Shown: piece by piece, positions 10,449 through 17,590 of the stretch
Numbering within the stretch: the stretch's first letter is position 1
Layout: each line of letters opens with the position of its first letter
Origin: Halobaculum rubrum
GTDB taxonomy: Archaea; Halobacteriota; Halobacteria; Halobacteriales; Haloferacaceae
Assembly: GCF_019880225.1 (NCBI RefSeq)
Contig: NZ_CP082284.1
Coordinates: forward strand, 2,170,001 to 2,234,000
DNA: 64,000 nucleotides
Direction of reading: 5' to 3'
Program-made: the position numbers and the translations under genes
Notes under the pieces: generated by a model
Database searches by the model: none
The model's input: the letters and a program-made list of their open reading frames with translations, nothing else
What the model was told of the DNA's origin: nothing

Positions 10449-11366
10449 ATGGCCCGTATGACCGAGTACGGCGTCGTCACCCGCAACGCGGAGGAGACGG
10501 AGTGGCCGGAGTTCGACCTGGCCTTCTACGAGGTGAAGGACGTGACCGGGCGCTCGGCCGAACCGATCGACACGGCCGTGAACATGGTGTCGTGTTTCGG
10601 CGACAACGCCGCCGCCGAGGCGAATCCCGAGCTCGTTCCCGTCGACGCCGACGGTCGATCGGCGACCCGCGACCTGTCGTACTTCGACTGGGCGTACATC
10701 TGCCCGACCCACGAGGAGTACCGGCGCGGCCTGCTGGAGATCGTCGAGGACTGCGCGGCCGTCTTCGGCGACGTGCGCCTCGACGACGTGGGGTTCCCCC
10801 GGGAGGGATTCTGTCGCTGCGACCGGTGTGAACGGCTGTTCGAAGCAAGCGACCACCAAGAATGGGCTGACTGGCGCGCCGAGGTGATAACCGAGTTCGT
10901 CGCCGAAGCGACCGAGCGGATCCCCGGGAAAGCCTACCTCACGCTGTACCCCGACCCCTATCCGGGCCATCTGTACGACCGCGCCGGCCTCGACCTGGAC
11001 GCGCTGGCCGCCCACGTCGACGAGTTCGTCGTCCCGCTGTACGACACCAACTACGGGACGACGTACTGGCTGGAGACGATCGCGAAGGGGTTCGAGAGCC
11101 GGCTCGCGGAGCTCGACGTGACGTTCTCGGTGGAGCTGTACGCCGTGAACGTCGAGGTCGACGACCTGAACCACGCCGCGGAGGTCGCCGCCGCCTACGG
11201 CGAGGACGTGTTCTTCGGCTACGATGCGAGTCAGGCCGTGGCGGCGCTTCGTCGGATGAAAGCGGACGCCCGAGAGGGCCGGAGCTACGGCGGGGACGAC
11301 TCCGGGGCGGCGAGCGAAGGAGTAGTCGAGGATGACCAAGACGGGAATCACGATGAGTCCGCGTGA
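10449..11366 (+). CDS. Haloarchaeal TIM-barrel, glycoside-hydrolase-like protein
   Basis: 305 aa, function unknown. The pattern FPREGFCRCDRCERLF resembles the CxC/CxxC loop seen in several uncharacterised glycoside-hydrolase-like (beta/alpha)8 proteins, and the surrounding order (DWAYICPTHEEYRRG, then YLTLYPDPYPGH, then FVVPLYDTNYG, then FFGYDASQAVAAL) fits successive barrel strands with acidic and aromatic ends. The C-terminal 30 residues are Gly/Asp/Glu-rich and probably disordered. Two starts are possible, MARMTEY at 10449 or MTEY at 10458; a TTCGAAAC element 25 bp upstream favours the first. Enzymatic activity is not demonstrated by anything visible. Confidence 0.62.
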   Translation: MARMTEYGVVTRNAEETEWPEFDLAFYEVKDVTGRSAEPIDTAVNMVSCFGDNAAAEANPELVPVDADGRSATRDLSYFDWAYICPTHEEYRRGLLEIVEDCAAVFGDVRLDDVGFPREGFCRCDRCERLFEASDHQEWADWRAEVITEFVAEATERIPGKAYLTLYPDPYPGHLYDRAGLDLDALAAHVDEFVVPLYDTNYGTTYWLETIAKGFESRLAELDVTFSVELYAVNVEVDDLNHAAEVAAAYGEDVFFGYDASQAVAALRRMKADAREGRSYGGDDSGAASEGVVEDDQDGNHDESA

Positions 11367-12970: not shown

Positions 12971-13873
12971 ATGACCGTTCGCATCATCGGTGCGCCGACC
13001 GACTACGGCCAGGACCGGCGCGGCGTCGACATGGGCCCGTCCGCCATCCGCTATGCCGGCCTCTCGGACGCGCTGGCGTCCGCGGGCGTCGACGCCGTCG
13101 ACGCCGGCGACCTCACGGTGCCCCGTGCGGAGGAGCGCGACCCCGACGCCCGACAGCCGAGCGCGGGGAACGCGAAGTTCCTTCAGGAGACCGAGGAGGT
13201 CACGACCGCGCTCGCCGACCGCGTCGCCGACAGCGTCGCCGCCGGCGAGACGCCGCTCGTGCTCGGCGGCGACCACTCGGTCGCGATCGGCTCGCTCTCA
13301 GGCAGCGCGCGCGACGCCGAGATCGGCGCCGTCTGGTTCGACGCCCACGGCGACTACAACACGCCGACGACCTCGCCCTCCGGCAACGTCCACGGGATGC
13401 CGCTGGCGGCCGCGCTCGGATACGCGGAGTGGGACGGCGTCGAGTGGGCGAACGCGCCCGGGTTGCGCGAGGAGAACGTCGCGTACGTCGGCCTCCGCGC
13501 GCTCGACGACAGCGAGCGCGAGGCGATCCGCGCGACCGAGATGACGGCCTACACCATGTCCGACATCGACGAGCGCGGGATCACCGACGTGGTCGAGGCG
13601 GCGCTGTCGGTCGCGAGCGACGGCGTCGACGGTGTCCACGCTAGTCTGGACATGGACTGGCTCGACCCGACGATCGCCCCCGGGGTTGGGACGCCCGTCC
13701 GCGGCGGCGTCACCTACCGGGAGGCCCATCACGCGATGGAACTCGTCGCCGAGACGGACGGGCTCCGCTCGATGGAGGTCGTCGAGGTGAACCCCGTCCT
13801 CGACGAGTCGAACGAGACCGCCTCGCTCGCGACCGAACTCGTCGCCAGCGCGTTCGGCAAGCGGATCCTCTGA
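12971..13873 (+). CDS. Arginase-family ureohydrolase
   Basis: 300 aa Mn-dependent hydrolase. Metal ligand motifs are complete: GGDHSVAIG, WFDAHGDYNTP followed by SPSGNVHGMPLA, and SLDMDWLDP. The SPSGNVHGMPLA segment is closer to arginase than to agmatinase, where this loop differs, so arginase (arginine to ornithine plus urea) is favoured; formiminoglutamase is less likely. DAHGDYN replaces the more usual DAHADxN, a small change near the second metal. The frame is open for ten codons upstream but the ATG giving MTVRIIGAPTD matches the family start. The HAD gene ends 42 bp upstream. Confidence 0.9.
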   Translation: MTVRIIGAPTDYGQDRRGVDMGPSAIRYAGLSDALASAGVDAVDAGDLTVPRAEERDPDARQPSAGNAKFLQETEEVTTALADRVADSVAAGETPLVLGGDHSVAIGSLSGSARDAEIGAVWFDAHGDYNTPTTSPSGNVHGMPLAAALGYAEWDGVEWANAPGLREENVAYVGLRALDDSEREAIRATEMTAYTMSDIDERGITDVVEAALSVASDGVDGVHASLDMDWLDPTIAPGVGTPVRGGVTYREAHHAMELVAETDGLRSMEVVEVNPVLDESNETASLATELVASAFGKRIL

Positions 13874-13925
13874 CCGCGGCGCGTATCGGGAACGACCGGA
13901 GGGGTTCGAGACGGGCCGGTAGGTA

Positions 13926-13943
13926 ACTGATATGGTTATCAGT
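13926..13943. repeat. Perfect 7-bp inverted repeat
   Basis: ACTGATA, four bases, then TATCAGT. It lies just past the arginase gene and at the edge of the low-GC block. It could be an operator, a hairpin at a transcript end, or a remnant of insertion; nothing decides between these. Confidence 0.5.
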
Positions 13944-13985
13944 ATTCGTCTCAGAGTGACCGTCCAAAACGCGGCTCTTACGCAC

Positions 13986-14237
13986 TCAGACTTGAGCTAG
14001 TTGTTGGTGAATGATCCAATCCAAAAGAAGGACAAGTGCAGGCGTTGCGACGAGAAAAATCCCGTACGTGACTATGACGGAACTATTAGAATCGATCCAC
14101 AGTTGTTGGAGGGAACTGAGCGATCGCGGGAAACGACCAGTACCGACGACGACAAGCCCGAGATTCAACGCGACGAACGATAGGCAAAGAACCGTGTAAC
14201 GGACTGCAAGGGTGTACAGCGAGCGGGGCGAAAACAT
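13986..14237 (-). CDS. Small two-helix membrane protein
   Basis: 83 aa from the chosen ATG (MFSPRSLYTL); the frame stays open to an ATG at 14324, giving 112 aa. Two transmembrane segments are clear: VLCLSFVALNLGLVVVG and VIVTYGIFLVATPALVLLL, joined by a polar loop with RFPRSLSSLQQ. No family recognised. It lies downstream of the PH-domain membrane gene on the same strand and is probably the last gene of that low-GC operon. Codon use has far more A/T third positions than genes outside the block. Confidence 0.6.
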   Translation of the reverse strand: MFSPRSLYTLAVRYTVLCLSFVALNLGLVVVGTGRFPRSLSSLQQLWIDSNSSVIVTYGIFLVATPALVLLLDWIIHQQLAQV

Positions 14238-14377
14238 CGTGTACTCCGTACTGCAGCGTCCGGTTAGTAATGCGGCCGGTAACCGAATTGCAACGGGTAT
14301 CCGGGTCCGGAAGGAGGAGTACATACGATAGCAGCTAGGTCGAAAGACGACAGTCCACGGGTCGTCTTCGGCTACTG

Positions 14378-15016
14378 TTAGACGTACTCGCGAATCTGGT
14401 CGGCAAACTCCGTCGACTGTTCCATGTTCCGCATGACGATCTTGAGCGAGCCGCCTCCCCCACCGCTTGCCACCTTCACGTTTCCGAGCCCGACTAGGGC
14501 CTCGGTTACTGATTTGCGTTCCTCAACACCACGGACTTTGTCCAGCGGGAGTTCCTGACGTATGAGTGATATGAGGCGGTACTCACGGATCATTCGTCGG
14601 TTCGTCAGGTAGTAGGTAGTGAGACTGTTCGACCAGTACACCTCCAGTCCCTTCGAGAAGAAATACAGACCGACGAGCAAGGTCACAGTTGGATAGACGT
14701 ATGGGACCTGCGAAAAGAACATAAGATAAACAGTCGCCGCGAGGAGTGGAAGGCCGAGGCAAATCTTCACCAGCGCAACTCGCTGTGTCGGATGGCGCTT
14801 GTCTACGATGTGCTCATCCCCCCGCATGGTCGGTGACTCTGGAGCCGCCACGAAGTGGATATAGAACCCCATAATGACGATGAAGCCTCCGAATACGGCG
14901 AACGGCAGGCCGAGAAGCGGCGGTACGTCAAGTTCGCCAAAATAGACATAGATTCCAGCGATGATGAACGGTAAGCCGAGGATCGTACTCCAGACCGCGG
15001 GTTTCCCTCGGGCCAT
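14378..15016 (-). CDS. Membrane protein with C-terminal bacterial PH domain (DUF304-like)
   Basis: 212 aa. Four hydrophobic segments occupy about 8-25, 33-55, 83-101 and 107-125. The C-terminal part has the typical bPH2/DUF304 run YYLTNRRMIREYRL, then LPLDKVRGVEER, a LGLGNVKV-like strand and a closing helix, so a PH-like domain sits on the membrane, probably on the cytoplasmic side. A Gly-rich stretch (GGGGG) is inserted in the loop before the last strand. The start codon is one base away from the stop of the propeller gene, so the two must be co-transcribed and likely work together in the envelope. Function of DUF304 proteins is mostly unknown. Confidence 0.8.
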   Translation of the reverse strand: MARGKPAVWSTILGLPFIIAGIYVYFGELDVPPLLGLPFAVFGGFIVIMGFYIHFVAAPESPTMRGDEHIVDKRHPTQRVALVKICLGLPLLAATVYLMFFSQVPYVYPTVTLLVGLYFFSKGLEVYWSNSLTTYYLTNRRMIREYRLISLIRQELPLDKVRGVEERKSVTEALVGLGNVKVASGGGGGSLKIVMRNMEQSTEFADQIREYV

Positions 15017-15017
15017 T

Positions 15018-16463
15018 TTATTGCCCTCCGATCATCGAGTGAAGGACGCCCGCTACAGAGAGGGCGAACCCACCGATGGTCAGTACGTAGGGGTCGCTCA
15101 GTGCGTCGAGTTGCCCCTCCTCTCCGTTTGTGAGGAATCCACGATTGACTGGCTCCTCTGTCGTGGGTTGAGGTTCTTCAGTCGGAGTCTGTTCTGTTCC
15201 CACCTCGTTTTGATCCGTGGACGTACTGGTCTCGTCTGAGACGTCAGCCTCTGTCTCGGTCGCAGTGGCCGTCTCTGTCTCGGTCGTAGTGGGCGTTTTA
15301 GGTGCGAATTCGTCGCTGGAGATCGCGTACAAGCTGTGATCCCAATTACCGACGAGGAGTACGCCGTCCACGATGGCGGGCGGGGAACTAATGAAATCGC
15401 CACGCGGATATCGCCAGAGGTCCTCACCAGTCTTTGCGTCTATCGCCCGCAGGTCACCTTGCGTAATAAACACCACTCCGTCGGCCACTGCGGGTGACGC
15501 TCGCACGCTCGCCTCTTCCTCAGAGATGAAGGCGGTCCACTCGACCGATCCGCTTGATCGGTCGAACGCATAGAAGTCGGACTGACCTTCGCCCCCTATG
15601 AATACCCGCTCGTCTGACACCGCGGGCGACGTGATGACATCCTGGTTCAGTTCGGTCGTCCATTCGGGAGCGCCGTCCGTGCGGGAAAGTGCGAAGAAGT
15701 TCCCGTTCTCGGTTCCCACATAGACGGTCTCATCGGTGACTGCTGGTGGGGCCCGAACTTCGCCTCCGAGGTCAGTACTCCACACAACTGACCCGTCACT
15801 CCCATCCAACGCGTACATAGTTCCCCCGCTGCTTCCGACATAGACCGTCTCGTCGACGAGTCCGAGCCCGGATTCGAAGAAGAACTCTTTGTCGAAGCGC
15901 CAGATCACTTCACCCGAGTCGGCATTGACTGCGTTGACAGCGTCGTCGATGAAATACACCTGGCCGTTTGATGCGGCAACCGGTGTGGTGATCTCACTGC
16001 TCGTGGATATGGTCCAGTTCCTGTTGCCCGTCACGGCGTTGAGCGAGTAGAGCTTCCCATTTTTTGACCCGACAAACACAGACTCGAAAGCAACACACGG
16101 CGTCGGTATATCCTCGGGGATATCACCCAACGGTTCATCGAGGCTGGTACGCCACTTCCGTGTGCCGGTCGCCAAGTCGACAGCGAACACCTCTCCCTGC
16201 GCGGAGGTGAAATACACTGTTCCGTCAACAACTGCGGGGCCCGACGGGAATCCCGGTAGCATATCGTACCGCCACCGTTCGCCGACGTTCTCTTTCGGCA
16301 CACGAGCGTGCGGGTTATAGCCCGTGTTTCCACCGTTCCCACCGAACGACGCCCAGTCAGCTGCTGTGTCGTTATCAGCTGTCGCCAGCGTAGGGCCCAC
16401 AGCCGTAGCAAAAAGAAGTGCACCGCTCGATTTTAACGCGGCTCTCCGACTTATTTGGCTCAT
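15018..16463 (-). CDS. Tat-exported PQQ-type beta-propeller protein with C-terminal membrane anchor
   Basis: 481 aa. The N terminus (SRRAALKSSGALLFATAVG) is a Tat signal ending near ALATA-like TLATA. Residues about 35-385 are a run of PQQ/WD-like blades, each with a V-D-G-x-V-Y or T-V-Y-V-G strand followed by A-L/V-D-x-x-(T/S)-G, seven to eight in all. A Thr/Glu-rich stalk (about 390-445) follows, then one hydrophobic helix near the C terminus (LTIGGFALSVAGVL). So it is a surface propeller held on a flexible stalk. No cofactor residues for a dehydrogenase are evident; a binding or scaffold role, as for BamB-like propellers, is more likely. It is first in a low-GC operon. Confidence 0.88.
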   Translation of the reverse strand: MSQISRRAALKSSGALLFATAVGPTLATADNDTAADWASFGGNGGNTGYNPHARVPKENVGERWRYDMLPGFPSGPAVVDGTVYFTSAQGEVFAVDLATGTRKWRTSLDEPLGDIPEDIPTPCVAFESVFVGSKNGKLYSLNAVTGNRNWTISTSSEITTPVAASNGQVYFIDDAVNAVNADSGEVIWRFDKEFFFESGLGLVDETVYVGSSGGTMYALDGSDGSVVWSTDLGGEVRAPPAVTDETVYVGTENGNFFALSRTDGAPEWTTELNQDVITSPAVSDERVFIGGEGQSDFYAFDRSSGSVEWTAFISEEEASVRASPAVADGVVFITQGDLRAIDAKTGEDLWRYPRGDFISSPPAIVDGVLLVGNWDHSLYAISSDEFAPKTPTTTETETATATETEADVSDETSTSTDQNEVGTEQTPTEEPQPTTEEPVNRGFLTNGEEGQLDALSDPYVLTIGGFALSVAGVLHSMIGGQ

Positions 16464-16924
16464 TAGCGTAGCGATAGACTCGATTATAAAAAGTGTTCCG
16501 TGAATTTGTTTTTTTATAAATAAGATGATGTGACAGGTGCGGATGTGTGAATCATAACACGGTAAAGTGGTACTGATACCATTGAATTGATCGTGGTAAT
16601 TGGATACATTCCGAGTGTTAAGTACCTACTGTGGGCAAGTTTGACTGCTTACTCCGCAATGATGTGATGAGGATCCGCTCCGTCAATCGATCGAAATCGA
16701 ACTGTCTGAAAGTCGTTCCGGGAGTGGTGAGAGAGTCAGTAGAATCCGGCAGACACGGTTCAACTGTGGAATCCGATTAACTCCAAATCACAATCTCTGA
16801 CTCCAGGAGAGAGATGTGAACGACTCTGTCACAATGTACAACTGATTCACCGTCTGACTCTCCCGACGGGTTCCAGCGAACGGTTGAGAATCGAGGACGC
16901 CCGGAGAGACCCGTTCTCGGTAGA
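16464..16924. other. AT-rich intergenic region
   Basis: About 460 bp, clearly lower in GC than the rest. It holds the propeller promoter (16484-16493), a T-run with TTTATAAATAAG near 16510-16525, and a palindrome TGGTA-CTGA-TACCA at about 16568-16581. No coding frame or transposase remnant is recognisable. It could mark the boundary of an acquired segment. Confidence 0.55.
16484..16493 (-). promoter_or_regulatory. TATA-like box of the propeller operon
   Basis: On the minus strand TTTTTATAAT lies about 25 bp before the ATG at 16463, the spacing of a leaderless haloarchaeal transcript. Confidence 0.6.
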
Positions 16925-17590
16925 TTGACCATCCCCTCGGCCCCACACGTCGACATCCGCTGGAGCGACGTCTCGACCGACGCCGACCTCGTCGCCTACA
17001 GTCGCGACTACGCCGAGTCGGCGGTCGCAACGTACGACTACCGGCTCCCGTCGCTGTCGGTGGTCGCCGACTGGAGCGTCTCCGGGCGGGCCAAGCGCCG
17101 CGCGGCGGTCGTGAAACACCCGAAGATCCCGGGGGCGGGCGTCGGCGACCGTCTCGACTGGGACGCCACCCGTCGCGAGCACGGCGACCGACTCCCCGCT
17201 CCCGACTCGCGGTTCGACTCCCTCCGCGAGTGCCACGTCGTCTGTTCGCGGCGCGCGGCCGACGCCTTCGACGAAGCCGAGTGGCGCCGGGTGCTCCGAC
17301 ACGAACTCGTCCACGTCGAGCAGTTCGCTCGGTTCGGCGCCACCGGCCACGGCGCGTGGTTCCGCGACCGGGCGGCGACGGTGAACGCCGACCGCCACTG
17401 CCCCACGTTCCACCGCGGGCGCTACCTGATCCGCTGTCGGGGATGCGGGGCGGTCGTCGCGGACCGGTGCCGTCGCTGTCGAACGACGCGGCTCGCGGGG
17501 CTGTCGATGCGTGAACAGCGCGAGCGACTGGGGCCGACCGACTGCTGTGGAGCGTTCTACGAACTGGAGGACACGCGGACGGGGGAGTGA
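16925..17590 (+). CDS. SprT-like zinc metalloprotease-fold protein with zinc ribbon
   Basis: 221 aa. HELVH at 126-130 with a downstream GHGAWF (141-146) gives the HExxH plus third His arrangement of SprT/Spartan-type gluzincins; Spartan proteases remove DNA-protein crosslinks in eukaryotes. A C-terminal zinc ribbon has Cys171, Cys174, Cys182, Cys185 and a CC pair at 207-208. No ATG or GTG is in frame upstream of the conserved part, so the start is taken as the TTG at 16925, unusual but workable. It lies next to the topoisomerase block and converges with gyrA, nine bp apart, which fits a DNA-maintenance role as inference only. Confidence 0.82.
   Translation: MTIPSAPHVDIRWSDVSTDADLVAYSRDYAESAVATYDYRLPSLSVVADWSVSGRAKRRAAVVKHPKIPGAGVGDRLDWDATRREHGDRLPAPDSRFDSLRECHVVCSRRAADAFDEAEWRRVLRHELVHVEQFARFGATGHGAWFRDRAATVNADRHCPTFHRGRYLIRCRGCGAVVADRCRRCRTTRLAGLSMREQRERLGPTDCCGAFYELEDTRTGE

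Follow-up and report, generated by a model that had tools for sequence, protein, structure and literature searches.

The window analyzed here is a stretch of 64,000 nucleotides from Halobaculum rubrum (RefSeq assembly GCF_019880225.1, contig NZ_CP082284.1, positions 2,170,001 to 2,234,000), and our subject is a block of three minus-strand genes within it, two of which recur as neighbors in other haloarchaea. The first gene (15018..16463, minus strand, 481 amino acids) encodes a surface protein with a twin-arginine translocation (Tat)-type signal, a BamB/PQQ-type beta-propeller, a Thr/Glu stalk, and a C-terminal tail. The second (14378..15016, minus strand, 212 amino acids) encodes a membrane protein with four transmembrane helices and a C-terminal PH domain, and the third (13986..14324, minus strand, 112 amino acids) encodes a small two-helix membrane protein. 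Genes were called with a simple script of our own, and the gap between the propeller stop and the PH start is one base. The GC content of 1-kb windows within 14001-17000 was 0.53-0.59, compared to 0.66-0.73 in the neighboring 10-13 kb and 17-22 kb. GC content at third codon positions (GC3) was 0.65, 0.68, and 0.58 for the three genes, compared to a median of 0.907 for the 51 window genes called by the script, a reference that includes the open reading frames (ORFs) of the cassette itself. These results agree with a preliminary description of the window, which had noted three minus-strand genes in a block richer in A/T, the propeller and PH genes one base apart, and had asked for a GC and codon check.

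The surface protein matched Pfam PQQ_2 (PF13360) at 176 bits (E 1.3e-51; curated cut-off 27.6 bits), and its nearest fold in the PDB was the BamB model 9a3d (Foldseek E 1.4e-26). The propeller, at approximately residues 35-385, was well predicted in the structure model; the stalk was disordered, and a helix at residues 458-478 was of middling confidence. Although the fold is that of the BamB and PQQ propellers, the protein scored below the NCBIfam cut-offs for both the BamB equivalog (TIGR03300; 174.1 bits, cut-off 285.2) and the PQQ-dependent alcohol dehydrogenases (TIGR03075; 103.7 bits, cut-off 480.05). The Tat signal, stalk, and C-terminal anchor described previously are all present, as an SRRAAL motif, the stalk itself, and one C-terminal hydrophobic helix.

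The constant part of the protein is its tail, RGFLTN...LTIGGFALSVAGVLHSMIGGQ, which occupies residues 441-481 (15021..15143, minus strand) and includes the membrane helix at 458-478. The last 40-48 residues are common to the surface proteins that precede the PH genes described below, despite their differing outer parts. R441, G465, and S469 were invariant across 30 aligned surface proteins whose outer domains differ, and 48 of 50 tails carried RG[FLI] followed by a helix, typically LTxxGFxxSxxGI. When 22 tails were compared with NCBIfam, no CTERM model was found at E<=1, and there were matches of single rows only, at E 0.049 or worse. Likewise, nothing convincing was found in Pfam, where one row matched DUF1206 at 1.3e-4 and two others matched weaker models. 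The tail is a C-terminal domain without a convincing model in Pfam or NCBIfam.

Among the closest known systems is the PGF-CTERM/archaeosortase A system of Haloferax volcanii, in which proteins secreted by Tat and by Sec possess a common C-terminal motif and helix (PMC7157517, as far as the accessible part of that source describes it). In both cases, varied secreted haloarchaeal proteins share a C-terminal motif and a helix. However, the known system has a PGF motif, a positively charged stretch following the helix, and a single enzyme that acts on diverse targets (same part of PMC7157517), whereas the module in the window has an RGF-type motif and one non-catalytic-looking partner per target. 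The window tail reads RGF rather than PGF and ends in ...HSMIGGQ, with no basic cluster after the helix of this protein, while several relatives end in R or K. We rejected the window protein as an archaeosortase substrate on the motif, the missing positive stretch, and the lack of a CTERM model.

The PH protein matched Pfam bPH_2 (PF03703) over residues 133-208 at 36.8 bits (E 4.8e-9; curated cut-off 22 bits), and the propeller and PH domain identities given in the preliminary description are both borne out by the Pfam matches. An AlphaFold2 model built from 23 sequences had a mean predicted local distance difference test score (pLDDT) of 90.8 and a predicted template modeling score (pTM) of 0.85. 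It placed helices at residues 6-26, 33-56, 79-101, and 107-132, a strand at 70-74 between helices 2 and 3, and the PH domain after them. Fold comparison aligned approximately model residues 61-212, with Z scores of 10.9 to 5yqr and 10.1 to 3dcx (root-mean-square deviation 2.6 over 94 residues), and barely probed the fold of the four-helix part. The aligned range suggests that helices 3 and 4 are inserted into the PH domain. The best Foldseek match had an E of 2.4e-3, and a search by sequence for solved relatives returned none that was convincing (best E 0.11). If the PH domain is cytosolic, the model would leave only two loops of about five residues each outside, and the tail would therefore be met within or at the membrane.

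Archaeosortases and exosortases have conserved catalytic Cys and His residues. No Cys or His was invariant or nearly so among the 23 PH proteins, which argues against a sortase-like enzyme. This bears on a reading in which the PH protein serves the tail as a dedicated factor for insertion, maturation, or sorting and does not stay bound to it, the tail being cleaved or handed on. Such a role would suit a tail made of a short motif and then a helix, like known C-terminal sorting tails, a PH model with just short loops opposite the PH domain, and a PH gene that adjoins its target gene, as such enzymes are often encoded beside the cognate target (PMC8416519, in the part available). Besides the missing residues, however, the GGQ end without a basic cluster, the failure of the 22 tails to match a CTERM model, and the occurrence of a separate partner gene for each target, instead of a single enzyme serving many, all speak against it, and we consider it unlikely.

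The PH gene was searched for in 197 relatives, giving 33 matches above 100 bits, one of which was the window's own; all of the other 32 loci were fetched. A same-strand tail gene lay directly before the PH gene in 31 of the 32, with a gap of 44 bases or fewer in 29 loci. In L061 and L064 the distance was 180-200 bases, measured to the aligned part only, since the PH reading frames there start earlier, and in L047 the preceding gene is broken, with a 73-residue frame bearing the tail remaining. L045 is the exception: it lacks a tail gene and encodes a PH protein of 1139 residues in which the PH part is fused to a long acidic region; this relative (L045:6499-9915) runs on into approximately 900 residues rich in acidic repeats. 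The preliminary description had allowed that relatives might carry these genes at unlinked loci, and the 31 of 32 loci show otherwise. Its proposed search for propeller-PH adjacency in other archaea came out in part as expected: the PH gene directly follows a surface-protein gene, but the propeller is only one of several outer domains.

Profiles were built from 22 tails (A1) and 23 PH proteins (A3). Searched against the same 197 genomes, the tail profile gave 32 matches at E 2.3e-8 or better, each beside a PH match by coordinates, and a tail match was directly upstream of 32 of the 33 PH matches above 100 bits, including two very divergent tails (E 2.3e-8 and 7.9e-10). No tail without a PH gene was found in these genomes at E<=1e-3, and six further tail matches at E 0.0016-0.01 fell outside that cut-off. 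Among 391 genomes of the class, a set that overlaps with the 197, there were 43 tail matches at E<=1e-3 in 42 genomes, 28 known and 15 in genomes new to the profile. In each of these 15, a PH homologue lay no more than a few bases away. Among 294 genomes of the phylum, the PH profile gave matches at E<=1e-12 in 8, all in the same order, with G122 having a weak relative without a tail. The two genes are coupled across these genomes, and the named relatives, from 20 loci, are all haloarchaeal.

No third gene family was present in more than 4 of 49 neighborhoods, in which neighbors were compared by clustering. For some neighbor families present at 4 loci, shared synteny is not the explanation, and one of these looks by eye like Orc1/Cdc6. 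These neighborhoods are relevant to the possibility that the locus is an export or envelope-protection unit like the bacterial YdbS/YdbT and DdE/DdF proteins, in which the surface protein would be an accessory. Those proteins also combine membrane helices with a bacterial PH domain of the same Pfam type as the window protein, and DdE and DdF are needed for export of the leaderless bacteriocin enterocin DD14; however, they are two PH proteins near an ABC transporter, with no constant-tail surface protein described in the available part of the source (PMC8657885). Here there is one PH protein and a surface protein, with no further common gene family around the 49 loci, and we find an export unit improbable. 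A PH pair of the YdbS/YdbT type was likewise rejected, as one PH domain occurs among the three cassette proteins and no second recurrent family in the 49 loci.

The outer parts of the surface proteins vary. BLAST clustering of 50 surface proteins gave a CARDB cluster of 19, a propeller cluster of 15, a carboxypeptidase-regulatory/immunoglobulin (CpD/Ig) cluster of 8, one pair, and six singles; L043 and L044 joined the propeller cluster only through a PKD domain, and L157 was later placed with the Ig type. Pfam outer domains included PQQ_2, PKD, DUF6923, CARDB, CarboxypepD_reg, Big_1, Laminin_G_3, and Copper-bind, and the CARDB and CpD/Ig types, both Ig-like folds, may be distant relatives. The 50 pairs omit L128 (a near-copy of L158) and L171 (weak PH, no tail); L045 was left out of tails, Pfam rows, and trees, L053 (a near-copy of L051) out of trees, and L047 and L053 out of alignment A2. 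When five coarse outer classes were placed on the PH tree, 7 changes were needed compared to a minimum of 4, with all 17 plain CARDB rows forming one clade. The approximately unbiased (AU) test used a reduced tree of 34 of the 50 pairs, from which 16 long-branch, near-identical, divergent, or damaged rows had been dropped after the first tree was seen. Holding the 7 PQQ-propeller rows together cost 63.0 log units (p-AU 3.64e-5), and holding the 7 Ig/CpD rows together cost 80.2 (p-AU 5.74e-5). With L043 and L157 added, the costs were 69.8 (p-AU 3.06e-5) and 56.5 (p-AU 0.00119), respectively. L043 and L044 had first been classed as propeller and the Ig class of L157 was assigned late, and both rejections hold without L043 and without L157. 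A single origin of the propeller-type or the Ig-type partners is rejected, and therefore outer domains are exchanged on a constant tail-plus-PH unit. The propeller does occur with the PH protein at this locus, as was originally described, but the constant partner is the C-terminal tail and the propeller is interchangeable.

Several side observations concern individual rows. The PH proteins of CARDB type (L048-L052, L054-L057, L059, and L060) have acidic C-terminal extensions, and the loop that joins their helices 1 and 2 is longer; in the tails of the same 11 loci, the Asn region is replaced by a Cys-Gly region and the spacer is shorter. This is possibly a matched change, in rows that form one clade. 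L051 and L053 (G035:C1:26704-27348 and 2858591-2859235) are two copies of the module that lie far apart on one contig, with identical scores and the same genes at their flanks. The Haloprofundus halobius surface protein at L196:2517-3998, which falls in the CARDB cluster under the name L056, is annotated as a PH domain-containing protein like its neighbor, a name that is perhaps misapplied. The surface gene is split into two frames in L047 and L157, and the tail is degenerate in L170, each beside an open PH gene; decay, sequencing error, and phase variation are candidates for these defects.

Nonsynonymous (dN) and synonymous (dS) rates were estimated between G000 and G004 by the Nei-Gojobori method, with a tail span of 41 codons. 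The tail (dN 0.011, dS 0.463) was the slowest-changing part of the surface protein, followed by the propeller (dN 0.060, dS 0.685) and the stalk (dN 0.158, dS 0.407). The PH protein had a dN of 0.021 and a dS of 0.602, and the small protein a dN of 0.285 and a dS of 0.549 (dN/dS approximately 0.52). dN was below dS in all parts, with the tail and PH protein the most constrained. Tail and PH identities were correlated over 46 loci (Mantel r 0.79, 0 of 2000 permutations; L047, L053, L157, and L170 omitted). Over 41 loci, the partial r was 0.78 between tail and PH given the outer-domain class and 0.37 between tail and outer class given PH.

A number of points weigh against a dedicated tail-PH partnership with exchangeable outer domains. 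The motif is not universal, as L058 has RKL and L170 has no motif. The 32 of 32 adjacency is partly by construction, since 22 of those tails built the profile, and the 15 further loci include near relatives of those used (the L156 PH is 99.5% identical to that of L040), while the L170 tail is degenerate. The tail searches scored a limited number of first-look candidates per genome (17 in the 391-genome run), and an orphan tail could have been missed. The Mantel correlation arises from co-inheritance alone as well. The tail also keeps some outer-domain signal, as the partial r of 0.37 indicates, and the tails of the Ig-type L034, L036, L121, and L162 are about as similar to that of the Ig-type L040 from another clade as to propeller rows of their own clade. 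Finally, contact between tail and PH protein is an inference drawn from linkage and conservation.

The spacing between the agmatinase and SprT-like genes was 44, 35, and 38 bp in the congeners G005, G002, and G007, compared to 3054 bp in the window genome, as taken from match coordinates with gene starts set by the query. We placed the inserted block at approximately 13923..16923, with ends judged by eye against this empty site. A fourth congener, G004, has the same three genes at another site, with identities of 87% for the propeller, 96% for the PH protein, and 62-66% for the small protein; DNA similarity is confined to window positions 14001-16535. The G004 cassette is flanked by a repeated 3' end of the neighboring gene (141 bp at 92%, or 129 bp at 95%; L033:7525-7665 and 10486-10626), one copy truncated and one in an intact gene, as if the cassette had integrated at a gene end, and no recombinase gene was seen in it. 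Because three congeners lack the block at the same site, GC3 is low, and the fourth congener has the block elsewhere, the block is real and was acquired in the window genome, as the preliminary description had proposed. Low GC is not a hallmark of the module, which was below its surroundings in 14 of 31 loci. The SprT-like gene (window 16925-17590) was strong in 4 of 11 genomes of the genus, with a fifth match weak and elsewhere, and genes appear to have been gained or lost repeatedly in the interval that follows the agmatinase gene.

The fixed gene order and the presence of the block at two different sites in the genus would also suit two genes that have no joint function and travel as a mobile passenger pair. 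However, no part of these otherwise different proteins is more constrained than the tail, which was found only with PH and which outer-domain exchange leaves untouched; we regard a passenger pair as very improbable.

Horizontal gain and outer-domain exchange, together with a patchy spread (the tail in 42 of 391 class genomes) and some plasmid carriage (four plasmid records with the PH gene, a transposase being annotated near one), raise a further reading, that of a self/non-self or conflict device whose variable outer domains recognize kin, competitors, or viruses. Self/non-self or conflict recognition is one role proposed for VARTIG of the Thermococcales, likewise a recently acquired archaeal surface module, with a variable Ig protein and, beside a hydrophobic region, a C-terminal motif that is short and conserved (PMC8416519, in the part available). 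VARTIG differs in its Ig domains, its DNNxxxGG motif, and its changing downstream genes, and the term "PH domain" is absent from the available text of that source. Membership in VARTIG was rejected, as the window protein is a propeller ending in GGQ and not a large Ig protein with DNNxxxGG. Against a conflict device, the three window proteins matched no PADLOC model (0 families at E<=1), which also led us to reject a known anti-phage defense system; no third family exceeded 4 of 49 neighborhoods, and the propeller is under purifying selection rather than diversification between G000 and G004. We therefore think a conflict role rather improbable. A viral origin was also rejected, as no PH relative was confirmed in viral contigs, scanned by one short peptide pattern, or in phage records.

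Other features of the insert are minor. The small protein, with two clear hydrophobic regions as described previously, was found in 2 of 197 genomes (the window genome and G004) and had no Pfam or NCBIfam match at E<=0.1; we rejected it as a core part of the module and treat it as an accessory, and its earlier inclusion in the system does not hold. A putative TATA-like promoter element, TTTTTATAA, lies at 16484..16492 (minus strand), 21-29 bp before the propeller ATG, and in G004 TTTTGATAA comes after the same CACGGAACAC as at this element. Upstream of the propeller, the DNA at 16661..16744 is 75% and 83% identical to parts of L192 and L193 that we read by eye as gene starts; it appears to be a decayed piece of sequence that resembles the beginning of an unrelated gene of haloarchaea. 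No recombinase or transposase of its own was found in the insert, which has no room for a further long gene and whose three proteins had no recombinase match, with shorter overlapping ORFs outside the scan. CGGTAG is present at 13917-13922 and 16918-16923 (12 occurrences in the window, 3 in 13800-17000), and could be a target duplication or chance; no long direct repeat was found at the insert ends in the window genome. Palindromes containing ACTGATA had been noted at both edges. The inverted repeat at 13926 (arms of 7) is one of two in its class (arms >=7, loop <=6), compared to a shuffle mean of 1.28, with 72 of 200 shuffles reaching 2. The other, TGGTACTGATACCA at 16568, has arms of 5 only and is one of 10 such repeats. 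ACTGATA occurs twice on the plus strand of the window, at 13926 and 16572. Measured from the right boundary that the congeners indicate, the second copy lies approximately 350 bp inward, and neither copy falls within the part shared with the G004 cassette; ACTGATA therefore does not mark the cassette ends. The palindromes appear to be chance occurrences, and we rejected them as ends of a mobile unit.

With about even confidence, we read the locus as one instance of a two-gene haloarchaeal surface module on an acquired cassette, in which a modular receptor or adhesin is built on the PH protein as its fixed chassis. The product of gene 1 would be exported by Tat or Sec and would consist of an exchangeable outer domain, a disordered stalk, and the constant tail, itself a juxtamembrane RGF-type motif and one membrane helix with a GxxxS face. 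The product of gene 2 would span the membrane with four helices, expose almost nothing outside, and keep its PH domain inside. The tail helix would dock through its GxxxS face into the four-helix bundle, forming a stable 1:1 complex; the outer domain would bind a ligand or surface, and the complex would be linked through its PH domain to the inner face of the membrane or to a partner in the cytosol. The coupling of the two genes, the constancy of tail and PH, the exchange of outer domains, and the acquisition in this genome are shown by the data, whereas we infer docking, stoichiometry, ligand binding, and inner-face output. The cell-surface system with PH protein at the inner face proposed in the preliminary description is upheld to the extent that the topology fits.

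A broader version, possible but doubtful, is that the constant tail helix and four-helix PH protein are a haloarchaeal receptor chassis that takes propellers, Ig repeats, lectin-like domains, and cupredoxin domains, spreads between strains as a small cassette, and acts across the membrane by means of a PH domain, resembling animal adhesion receptors by convergence. Integrin and talin offer an analogy only, that of an adhesion receptor helix with a PH/PTB-like inner domain, and talin heads were among the weak fold matches of the PH protein; no homology was shown, however, and the haloarchaeal tail has few residues after its helix.

No paper naming the tail-PH pair was found in the literature searched, with subscription papers and preprints outside the search, and a modular surface system with a constant tail and PH partner appears to have no prior description there. 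Two leads were set aside: the available passages of PMC11237479, followed for DUF304, concern DUF3046, and those of PMC10936438 place propellers and Ig proteins in Vps4 neighborhoods and not in a PH pair.

How archaea sense or grip their surroundings by means of single-pass surface proteins is little known. The genomic evidence for the module is strong, and the mechanism is offered as a hypothesis. The tail defines a C-terminal domain for which no convincing Pfam or NCBIfam model was found, and a constant tail with a dedicated membrane partner would provide a sequence handle for finding archaeal surface proteins. The PH membrane protein, in turn, gains a testable role as the partner of a surface protein.

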